From Marinilabiliaceae bacterium (GTDB taxonomy: Bacteria; Bacteroidota; Bacteroidia; Bacteroidales; Marinilabiliaceae): 64,000 nt of DNA. The stretch is from contig JAFGBR010000013.1 in the NCBI GenBank assembly GCA_016933045.1, positions 1 through 64,000 of the forward strand. Direction: 5' to 3'. The translations under genes and the position numbers were made by a program. Below the pieces are notes generated by a model that made no database searches, was not told the DNA's origin, and saw nothing but the letters and a program-made list of their open reading frames with translations. Below, piece after piece: positions 55,842 to 58,914 of the stretch (its first letter is position 1; each line of letters begins with the position of its first letter).

Positions 55842-56852
55842 CTATATTTTTCTTTCATGTTTCAAAATATTTTTCAACACTGATTCGCTTACTTTAAAAA
55901 TGGTTCCATGCTTATGCCCTTCAGGAATAGTAATTTTATCATTGGCAGATTCAAAATTCTTAAAGTCATTTGTTTTCAACGCCCCATAAAACCGCTTCGA
56001 ATATGCATCGAAATAAATCAAATAGCCATCATCGACTTTTGCAACATTAGGGCCTTCACAGAACTCCCAGTCTGTTGGTGTAATAGGATCGGAAATATTT
56101 TCCCAAGGACCTTCGGGCGATTTTGAAAATGCCACTTTTAAATTTCGCATTGGTCGCGTATTATCTTTAAACACCAAGGCATAATCTTCACGTCCCCGCT
56201 TTACAATAGCACCGTCTATACAGCTAAAACCAGGTTCGAGGAATAGTTTTGTCGGCGAAAAAGTCTTAAAATCTTTTGTTGTAGTGTAATACTGACGATG
56301 ATTGTTCATTTCTTCCTCCTGCCCTTTTTCAAATTTATACGGTATGGTTGATGCCCATACGATAATGAACTTATCTCCAGCATCATCATAGAAGACTTCA
56401 GGAGCCCAAACATTTACGGTCGATGAATCTTCCATTACTTCAATCATGCGTGGCTCCAACCAATTAATTAAATCAATTGAACTGGCATAACCAAACCCTT
56501 TATCTCCACGCCAGCTCGATGTCCAAACCAAATGAAAAGTTCCATCTTCACCTTTAGCAATTGATGGATCACGCATTACCTTTTGAACGCCAACCGAAGG
56601 TTTTAGATAAATACTATCTAGTGCAGTCCAATGGTATCCATCATAACTATATAAGAATCTTAATCCTTCATCGGCAGGTTCATGAAAAGAGGTAAACAGG
56701 TAAACTTCTTTTTCTTGCTTTTGGCAGGCTGATAGTATAGTCAGTATCGTAACTAAAAGAAGAAACTGTTTTTTTACTATATATGACACACCCCTTAATC
56801 CCCTCTCTAGAGGGGAATGGTTACTGGTATATTTATATTTCGTTTTTTTCAA
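55842..56852 (-). CDS. GH43-like lipoprotein with repeat-derived N-terminus
   Basis: A five-bladed propeller of GH43 type: VMRDPSIAKGEDGTFHLVWT, GYASSIDLINWLEPRMIEVM, NVWAPEVFYDDAGDKFIIVW, CIDGAIVKRGREDYALVFKD and EFCEGPNVAKVDDGYLIYFD. The acidic residues in RDPS, IDGA and CEGP are at the positions used by GH43 as base, modulator and acid. The lipobox is LSAC. The ATG at 56852 makes residues 11-22 (NHSPLERGLRGV) a translation of a palindromic repeat. GTG at 56789 would give a normal lipoprotein signal (SYIVKKQFLLLVTILTILS), so the true start may be there. Confidence 0.85.
   Translation of the reverse strand: MKKTKYKYTSNHSPLERGLRGVSYIVKKQFLLLVTILTILSACQKQEKEVYLFTSFHEPADEGLRFLYSYDGYHWTALDSIYLKPSVGVQKVMRDPSIAKGEDGTFHLVWTSSWRGDKGFGYASSIDLINWLEPRMIEVMEDSSTVNVWAPEVFYDDAGDKFIIVWASTIPYKFEKGQEEEMNNHRQYYTTTKDFKTFSPTKLFLEPGFSCIDGAIVKRGREDYALVFKDNTRPMRNLKVAFSKSPEGPWENISDPITPTDWEFCEGPNVAKVDDGYLIYFDAYSKRFYGALKTNDFKNFESANDKITIPEGHKHGTIFKVSESVLKNILKHERKI
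56785..56826 (+). repeat. Dispersed palindromic repeat, copy 1
   Basis: CACACCCCTTAATCCCCTC then TCTAGAGGGGAATGG and GTTACTG. Arms CCCCTCT and AGAGGGG form the palindrome. Shares the core and the GTTACTGnTAT end with the 57336 copy and lies within the possible N-terminus of the GH43-like gene. Confidence 0.85.
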
Positions 56853-56892
56853 TATTCTATATTATTTAGTGTTATTCTCAAATACATTTTTC

Positions 56893-56925
56893 TTCCCCTC
56901 TTGAGAGGGGGCAGGGGGTGTGTTA
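56893..56925 (-). repeat. Dispersed palindromic repeat, copy 2 (inverted)
   Basis: On the minus strand it reads TAACACACCCCCTGCCCCC then TCTCAAGAGGGGAA. It lies 9 bp beyond the extended end of the DUF559 frame and faces copy 3. Confidence 0.85.
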
Positions 56926-56934
56926 TCTTCTTAC

Positions 56935-57312
56935 TTAAACTTCCCCTTCATAATTTAAAATATAATTCTCAATTTCTCGCAACACATTATCTATTGAATT
57001 ATACACCTATTGATCGTTAAATCTTAAGACTGTTATGCCTAATTCATTCAAATTTTGATCTTTTACCTCATCCTTTTCAAAAACCTCATCCAAAGTGTGT
57101 GAATATCCATCTAACTCTATGGCAAGCATTAAATCTTTGCAGAAAAAATCAACAATGTAATCTTTAATTGGTTTCTGCCTGTGAAAATCATACCCATACA
57201 TTTGTTTTCCTTTTAAATACCCCCAAAGAATTATCTCCGATTTTGTTGAGTTGTTTCTCAACTTTCTCGCCAATTCCTTTAGTTTAGGATTATATGGAAT
57301 TATTTTTTGCAT
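56935..57312 (-). pseudogene. DUF559 (Vsr-like) endonuclease gene split by an in-frame amber codon
   Basis: The frame starts at 57312 (MQKIIPYNPKLKELARKLRN) and shows the DUF559 core: TKSEIILWGYLKGKQMYGYD, FHRQKPIKDYIVDFFCKD, the catalytic-type LAIELDGYSH and LGITVLRFND. A TAG at 57007-57009 stops it at 101 residues, but the same frame continues VYNSIDNVLREIENYILNY to a TAA at 56935-56937, which is what the family has at its C-terminus. One base change would restore a 125-residue protein. Fold kinship is with very-short-patch-repair-type nucleases. It interrupts a carbohydrate operon and is enclosed by facing palindromic repeats. Confidence 0.85.
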
Positions 57313-57335
57313 GATTCTGTTTTGGCCACAAATTT

Positions 57336-57379
57336 ATCACACCCCCTACCCCCTCTCGAGAAGGGATGTGTTACTGATA
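57336..57379 (+). repeat. Dispersed palindromic repeat, copy 3
   Basis: ATCACACCCCCTACCCCC then TCTCGAGAAGGGATGTG and TTACTGATAT. It lies 23 bp upstream of the DUF559 start, with its CACACCCC end towards the gene, as copy 2 has on the other side. Confidence 0.85.
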
Positions 57380-57519: not shown

Positions 57520-58914
57520 CTAAATTGTATCCAAAATCAATACCCAATCATTGCCATTTTCAATTTCACCCGGAGGATCAAATGATAAGACACCTGAGTT
57601 TTCAAAATCCCCTATCATGGTTATTTGGCCATCGCGAGGATTGAACCATGACGCTTTAATTTTGTTACCTTCTATTTTACCTCCTTGAATCTCCATATTT
57701 CGCCCATTATAGGTATATACAAAAGCATAATTATGACCTCTAGTAGCTACCTGATAATCATATTTTTCACCATTATCACCTGCTATAATTGTTTGATCAG
57801 GAACCCGATCGAAAAAAGGACGCGAAAGCATCAATTTTTTCAAATACATCATTTGTGAAGCTCCGGCATCATCTTTTGCAATTGACCAAAATCTCTTGGC
57901 ACCATAAGCAGGTTCGCCATCGCCATCTTTATAAAACTGCATTACAGAACTATGTCCGTAGGTATAACCAAAAGCTCCTGAAAATACCGACCAGTAACCA
58001 TATCGACGAACATCACAATCTTTCCAATAAGGCTGAAGCGTGTCATGTAATCCCTGCGGAATACCTTCGTATGAGGGCTCACCATCAATGGTTGGCTTCA
58101 ATGGATTAAGTTCTAAATCATGCTGTACGTATTTATAATTATCCTCACCAAAACACCATTCAGTATCGTCCTGATCGTAACGACGATGTCCACTTTGGAA
58201 CATGTTAAAATCTAACCATGATTCGTTTTGAAACCAAATTGAAGATGTGGTTCGGCCACGAGGATGGAATGTAATTAAATGAGATGTATCTGCTCGATTG
58301 ATATTTTCACCAATAGCTTTCCAAACTCGGATTGAATCTTCTCCCTTAATATCACCTCCATTTAACCAAATTATGTTTTGACGATTTTTATATCTGTTTG
58401 CAAGCCATTTACCATAAGCAGCTCCTTCAGCAACAGTAACGCCACCATTCTTTACATTTGATCCCCAAACCGGTACCAGTGCCATATAAAGACCTTTATT
58501 TGCTGCCATATCAACAATATAATCGACATGATCCCAATAATCATACGCAACCGAATCTTCAAAGGCCGATCCTTCTGTTATTAGTGGGTTTGAAACAGTC
58601 TTATTTATCAACGCAGAATCGCCATAAACATTTTTAGCACTCAAAGTATGAAGAACCATAATCTGAATAACGTTAAAGCCTTTTTCGACTCGATCGTTAA
58701 GATATTTTTCTGCATCTTCACGTGTAAGCTTAGTAAATAACAACCAACCGGTATCGCCCAGCCAGAAAAAAGGATCACCGTCTTCAGTTTCAATAAAACA
58801 ATTGTTTTCTGATATTTTTAAAAGAGGCATCGATTTTTTTTCAGGTACCTTGTTAGTACATGATGTAATCAACCCAAAAACTGCAGCAAATAAAAGTAAT
58901 TTCTTAAGACTCAT
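57520..58914 (-). CDS. GH140-family (DUF4038) apiosidase-like lipoprotein
   Basis: A 464-residue lipoprotein (lipobox ITSC). The DUF4038 TIM barrel has FFWLGDTGWLLFTKLTREDA, NDRVEKGFNVIQIMVLH, YDYWDHVDYIVDMAANKGLY and LVPVWGSN. Candidate catalytic pair: Asp188 in IIWLNGGD and Glu279 in PTIDGEPSYEGIP. The C-terminal PF12904-type beta domain runs from about 375 (PDQTIIAGDNGEKYDYQVAT, WFNPRDG). The characterised GH140 member BT1012 cleaves apiose links in rhamnogalacturonan II. Apiose specificity here is an inference; other DUF4038 proteins have unknown substrates. Confidence 0.82.
   Translation of the reverse strand: MSLKKLLLFAAVFGLITSCTNKVPEKKSMPLLKISENNCFIETEDGDPFFWLGDTGWLLFTKLTREDAEKYLNDRVEKGFNVIQIMVLHTLSAKNVYGDSALINKTVSNPLITEGSAFEDSVAYDYWDHVDYIVDMAANKGLYMALVPVWGSNVKNGGVTVAEGAAYGKWLANRYKNRQNIIWLNGGDIKGEDSIRVWKAIGENINRADTSHLITFHPRGRTTSSIWFQNESWLDFNMFQSGHRRYDQDDTEWCFGEDNYKYVQHDLELNPLKPTIDGEPSYEGIPQGLHDTLQPYWKDCDVRRYGYWSVFSGAFGYTYGHSSVMQFYKDGDGEPAYGAKRFWSIAKDDAGASQMMYLKKLMLSRPFFDRVPDQTIIAGDNGEKYDYQVATRGHNYAFVYTYNGRNMEIQGGKIEGNKIKASWFNPRDGQITMIGDFENSGVLSFDPPGEIENGNDWVLILDTI

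Follow-up and report, generated by a model that had tools for sequence, protein, structure and literature searches.

Facing palindromes around a DUF559 nuclease gene point to a probable selfish element with REPIN/RAYT-like architecture

The 64,000 nucleotides of Marinilabiliaceae DNA analyzed here (hereafter the window) contain a DUF559 nuclease gene framed by inverted copies of a GC-rich palindrome, which raises the question of whether gene and repeat together form a mobile unit. An earlier note on this DNA had proposed that they do, likening the arrangement to REP/RAYT systems in which a Vsr-like nuclease would take the place of the Y1 transposase, and had suggested that this would be a new type of element. 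The palindrome, which in the window has the form CACACCCC-(N)-CCCCTCT..AGAGGGG, is present in three copies. Copy 2 (56895..56922, minus strand), whose head GGGGTGTG is directed towards the 3' end of DUF559, and copy 3 (57338..57365, plus strand), which forms a hairpin with one mismatch and whose head is directed towards the 5' end, bracket the gene with their CACACCCC heads inward, exactly as the note had described. Its spacings (9 bp after the gene and 23 bp before it) need correction to 12 bp, between the natural stop (56935) and copy 2, and to 25 bp, between the head of copy 3 and the ATG (57312). Copy 1 (56787..56815, plus strand), with its CACACCCC head on the left, forms a heads-outward dimer with copy 2 (56787..56922), the geometry of which is that of a 73-bp dimer found elsewhere in the source genome (G000:C62:57797-57869).

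The gene between copies 2 and 3 is on the minus strand and belongs to the DUF559 family (PF04480), with a profile score of 89.7 bits against a gathering cut-off of 20.6. Its ORF (57007..57312) encodes 101 aa before ending at 57007 in an in-frame TAG, and the profile match crosses this codon and reaches 56965, within a full frame that extends, across this single TAG, to the natural stop (56935..57312). The active-site-like residues (VDF, ELDG, and H) are intact, but, because of the premature TAG, we consider the window copy to be decayed.

The DUF559 unit lies between a GH43-like gene (55842..56852) and a GH140 apiosidase gene (57520..58914), both on the minus strand. The start of the GH43-like ORF is now upstream of copy 1, which overlaps the 5' part of the ORF and is read through in frame (peptide SPLERGLRGV) back to a TTG (56780-56852). 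A GH43-like homologue in another genome (G251) starts just downstream of the position matching copy 1, and the usual start of the window gene is apparently gone, copy 1 occupying the position where it would be expected. More broadly, the genes between 45176 and 62103 encode GH140 apiosidase, BT_1020-like β-propeller, GH43-like, and DUF6298 proteins, which suggests a locus for the utilization of pectin (rhamnogalacturonan II). A PADLOC search returned no defense-system match.

The palindrome is overrepresented in the window and concentrated at this gene. With up to three mismatches allowed, the window has four matches to CCCCTCT-NN-AGAGGGG where 0.41 would be expected, and 1 of 100 shuffles yields as many. 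The 3.9-Mb source genome contains a single DUF559 gene and five exact palindromes, two of which are at the window locus, the others being the two halves of the 73-bp heads-outward dimer (contig 62) and a monomer (contig 1). The probability that two of five exact palindromes would fall by chance within 600 bp of the sole DUF559 gene is ~2e-7.

As for the nuclease, the window protein has the conserved D-(10)-E-x-D-G..H core. Across 55 diverse sequences, that of the window included, D57, E68, G71, and H74 of this core do not vary, and D70 hardly does. Profile comparison places two solved structures closest, namely the DUF559 protein 3hrl (E 1.6e-37) and the homing endonuclease I-Bth0305I (3r3p, E 2.9e-6). 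The same two structures are the best Foldseek matches of a DUF559 model (mean pLDDT 92), with target-normalized TM scores of 0.90 for 3hrl and 0.80 for 3r3p, the latter with a probability of 1.00, while Vsr itself is a much poorer structural match. The fold is best described as Vsr/EDxHD-like, and the source genome of the window has no Y1_Tnp match. Vsr acts on T:G mismatches and is not known to be associated with mobile repeats. EDxHD homing endonucleases have been described (PMC3943268), and a 2005 study placed the DUF559 protein YcjD in the PD-(D/E)XK superfamily, near Vsr (PMC1189080). In Caulobacter lacking a cytosine methyltransferase, a DUF559 protein is responsible for the in vivo SOS response and was taken to be a repair enzyme resembling Vsr (PMC12907096). 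The word stem "palindrom" is absent from the main texts of PMC1189080 and PMC12907096, and we found no paper in the open-access literature linking DUF559 to repeats, an earlier description elsewhere being possible.

The earlier note had suggested asking whether palindromes flank DUF559 genes more often than chance, and had considered that repeats equally dense around unrelated genes would speak against a link. Both points came out in favor of the link. We examined 60 protein relatives on GTDB species contigs, counting inward-headed palindromes within 350 bp of the gene. These relatives are from Bacteroidota (mainly Flavobacteriia, Bacteroidales, and Mucilaginibacter), together with single MAG contigs labeled Nitrospirota and Calditrichota, which show the same arrangement and for which binning errors are possible. 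An inward-headed palindrome is present on at least one side in 51 of the 60, and on both sides in 38. Palindrome density around these genes falls ~200-fold with distance, from 5.3/kb within 100 bp of DUF559 to 0.026/kb beyond 1.5 kb. When inverted repeats were scored irrespective of palindrome type, an ungapped score of at least 16 was obtained at 61 of 101 DUF559 loci, versus 1 of 359 control windows from the same loci. The association is not universal, 31 of 139 DUF559 loci having no recognizable palindrome. At the level of whole genomes, the palindrome is carried by 25 of 247 sampled genomes of the phylum, all 25 of which encode DUF559, compared with 138 of 247 overall (p=1.7e-7), and a reversed control pattern gave no occurrence in the 247 genomes. 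Gene and repeat are often physically merged, since in many relatives the final codons of DUF559 are themselves the downstream palindrome, yielding the C terminus HTPNPSQEGS.

Different DUF559 clades are paired with different palindromes. The DUF559 tree is based on few columns and has many unresolved forks, and we have therefore used it for clustering only. Over 139 domains, the CACACCCC label requires 8 changes, against a mean of 45.9 for shuffled labels (0 of 500 shuffles being as low), and one group of the tree takes 63 of the 64 sequences bearing this label. Other clades have CCCTCTCC..GGAGAGGG with a CCTCACCC head, CCCCTCC..GGAGGGG with ACCCTCCCC, or further types, and flanking palindromes are also found at DUF559 genes on plasmids of Deinococcus, Sinorhizobium, Sphingomonas, and cyanobacteria. 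The pairing is maintained within a single genome (G163), in which three DUF559 paralogues (L126, L249, and L250) have three different palindromes. In genus g51 (L235-L237, L249), a second family, ACCC(A/T)CCCC..CCCCTCC..GGAGGGG, is scattered through genomes that also have the CACACCCC family, flanks a different DUF559 paralogue, and takes the place of the CACACCCC family at a site upstream of ftsA. The DUF559 gene of E. coli K-12 is ycjD (sapF-ycjD-fabI, L109:2600-3420), where CCTCACCC-type palindromes are found downstream only, and in another E. coli strain ypfG and tkt are separated by a palindrome that is almost the same (L110:1000-1041). These ycjD-type palindromes may be "box C" repeats.

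The palindromes are not confined to the vicinity of the gene. In several genomes the majority of copies are distant from any DUF559, and these gene-free palindromes exist as monomers or dimers. In one genus there are many single palindromes in unrelated surroundings, with sharp edges, running from CACACCCC, preceded by A, to GGGGACTT. One copy adds ~11 in-frame residues (VQKSPLERGFRGVLEDKF) to an HsdM protein. A Sinorhizobium meliloti record (CP090106.1, L323-L328) has 41 palindrome heads against none for the control, among them several uniform dimers of ~125 bp with ends TTGCCCCTCACCC...GGGTGAGGGGCAA, and its DUF559 gene is flanked by a pair of such dimers in inverted orientation, one of which is truncated. 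This dimer may be the known RIME element.

DUF559 itself is also found within other genes. Pfam searches confirm that it is inserted in frame in LeuRS (L069, L072), MetH (L076, L092), HsdR (L073, L075), and HsdM (L085), that it splits a UvrD-type helicase domain (L095), and that a PurL-type protein (L080) carries it at its end. Many of these inserts are bordered by translated palindromes or their remnants. In LeuRS, the insert measures 471 nt (157 codons) in genome G053 when compared with uninterrupted relatives, and its position is identical in three genera, while in most of the family's 76 matching genomes LeuRS is uninterrupted at this site.

The note had further proposed a search for empty sites in related strains, which succeeded in part: empty sites exist in related genomes, but none was found among relatives for the window's own locus, because these relatives have no synteny across GH140-GH43. 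An 85-bp insert that opens with the palindrome is present where trpG starts in one genome (G191), and in two congeners without the insert the flanks are directly joined. In one genus, the interval between a regulator gene and xseB contains DUF559 and palindromes in four genomes and lacks them in four others, with up to 93% identity between the flanks of filled and empty alleles; the exact ends of this insertion are undefined because the filled alleles have extra sequence outside the palindromes. At a further site (site 7), comparison with three palindrome-free alleles shows a monomer with a sharp boundary on its hairpin side. No target-site duplication was seen at trpG or site 7, clean sites being few, and we found no same-species empty sites for the S. 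meliloti and Sphingomonas plasmids. Several other candidates were rejected. E. coli ycjD is not a clean empty site, since strains lacking ycjD have eefRABCD there, and several further sites in one genus were either shared by descent or swapped for another palindrome family.

We thus observe that gene and palindrome are coupled in a clade-specific manner, that the repeats are dispersed, that sites are found both empty and filled, and that insertions occur in frame. The window locus is probably best explained as one copy, now decayed, of a mobile palindromic element that is REPIN/RAYT-like in its organization, with a Vsr/EDxHD nuclease as its putative driver. In such an element, a short fixed-head palindrome (here ~34 bp, [A]CACACCCC-TAA-CCCCTCTCAAGAGGGG-ACTT) would spread as monomers or inverted dimers, and its dedicated partner would be a DUF559 nuclease of the Vsr / EDxHD (I-Bth0305I-like) PD-(D/E)XK type, encoded between two inverted copies. 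The nuclease would recognize the palindrome of its own clade, as a duplex or as a single-stranded hairpin, and nick or cut DNA, after which repair or recombination would copy the palindrome, alone or together with the gene, to new sites; palindromes with an open reading frame would be tolerated inside genes. Binding of the palindrome by DUF559, cutting, the driving of movement, and copying by repair are steps that we infer. Of the link between DUF559 and the spread of the repeats put forward in the earlier note, the coupling is supported, whereas movement by the nuclease is our reading of it, and the window itself offers a decayed copy.

How does this compare with known systems? REP/REPIN elements are short palindromes with a fixed head, dispersed as monomers and inverted dimers, and their RAYT partner is a single gene located between inverted copies and matched to the repeat type; the DUF559 elements share all of these properties, so that the comparison made in the note is apt as far as architecture is concerned, that is, dispersed palindromes and inverted copies around a partner gene. 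This architecture is described in PMC3733652. However, REP/RAYT heads are GTAG, whereas those linked to DUF559 are CACACCCC, CCTCACCC, and similar, and the RAYT partner is an HUH Y1 transposase rather than a PD-(D/E)XK Vsr-like nuclease, so the DUF559 unit is not a REPtron. In-frame insertion in genes is frequent for the DUF559 element, unlike for REP/RAYT. The EDxHD homing endonuclease I-Bth0305I, the nearest solved non-DUF559 relative by sequence and fold, has the same catalytic fold, and occupancy of one conserved LeuRS site in scattered genera is reminiscent of homing. In contrast to these endonucleases, DUF559 has no intron or intein and no extra DNA-binding domain, has palindromic repeats of its own, and is found at numerous sites that are unrelated to one another. 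CGTC-tagged REPs and Rickettsia palindromic elements are likewise dispersed palindromes, with a CGTC head that differs from CACACCCC; they occur in several phyla including Bacteroidetes, some of them in genes, and a dedicated transposase has been reported to be absent (PMC3733652). E. coli YcjD, a DUF559 member of the Vsr nuclease superfamily, adjoins CCTCACCC-type palindromes that recur elsewhere.

The main rival to nuclease-driven movement is that the palindromes are moved in trans by another enzyme, such as a Y1/RAYT transposase, DUF559 being a parasite that inserts beside or between palindromes used as homing sites. Y1_Tnp genes are indeed present in 15 of the 16 palindrome-bearing genomes examined, DUF559 resembles a homing endonuclease, and the LeuRS inserts occupy one site in three genera. 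Nevertheless, the absence of a Y1_Tnp match from the window's source genome weakens this explanation. Moreover, among the Y1_Tnp and palindrome matches listed, no Y1_Tnp gene is seen by inspection to be closer than ~2.9 kb to a palindrome, whereas DUF559 genes are flanked by palindromes, and a change of DUF559 clade goes with a change of palindrome sequence, which a general-purpose mover does not predict. We therefore judge it unlikely. Less plausible still, and in our opinion improbable, is that the palindromes are operators or terminators for DUF559 expression or mRNA stability in a stable, non-mobile nuclease gene, for example that of a Vsr-like repair enzyme. Single-stranded palindromes can fold into hairpins, these palindromes sit at gene ends, and the Caulobacter protein has been read as a repair enzyme (PMC12907096), but a regulatory role would not account for genomes in which most palindromes are far from DUF559, for a coding sequence interrupted in frame by a palindrome copy, for congeners differing in presence or absence, or for DUF559 within LeuRS, MetH, and HsdR, where it has no transcription unit of its own. 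That a few vertically inherited loci inflate the association is very improbable since, although some loci are orthologous (pairs of Flavobacterium or Mucilaginibacter loci share neighbor genes, for instance), the association recurs in many unrelated neighborhoods, in several phyla whose palindromes differ, and among the paralogues within a single genome.

Taken as a nuclease-driven element, the DUF559-palindrome pair suggests a kind of selfish element not described before, closely analogous in architecture to REPIN/RAYT, the mobility of which would be due to the nuclease. DUF559 is very widespread, as its frequency in the phylum and its presence in E. coli K-12 illustrate, and many bacterial palindromic repeats are without a known mover. 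The clade-by-clade pairing offers DUF559 a role amenable to experiment. If correct, this explanation would add a kind of mobile element that has no transposase, and would account both for odd peptides such as HTPNPSQEG, SPLERGFRGV, and SPSPSGRG, and for whole nuclease domains in LeuRS, MetH, HsdR, and other proteins. A broader proposition, to which we give about even chances, is that DUF559 nucleases, E. coli YcjD included, are the missing partners of very many GC-rich palindromic repeats, forming a broad selfish class that would spread by nuclease-primed repair without a transposase, both between genes and in frame in essential genes.

Finally, on the Nitrospirota-labeled MAG contig (L029:844-977), DUF559 is followed by four tandem copies of the hairpin part with a spacing of ~35 bp, an arrangement suggestive of local copying of the repeat.
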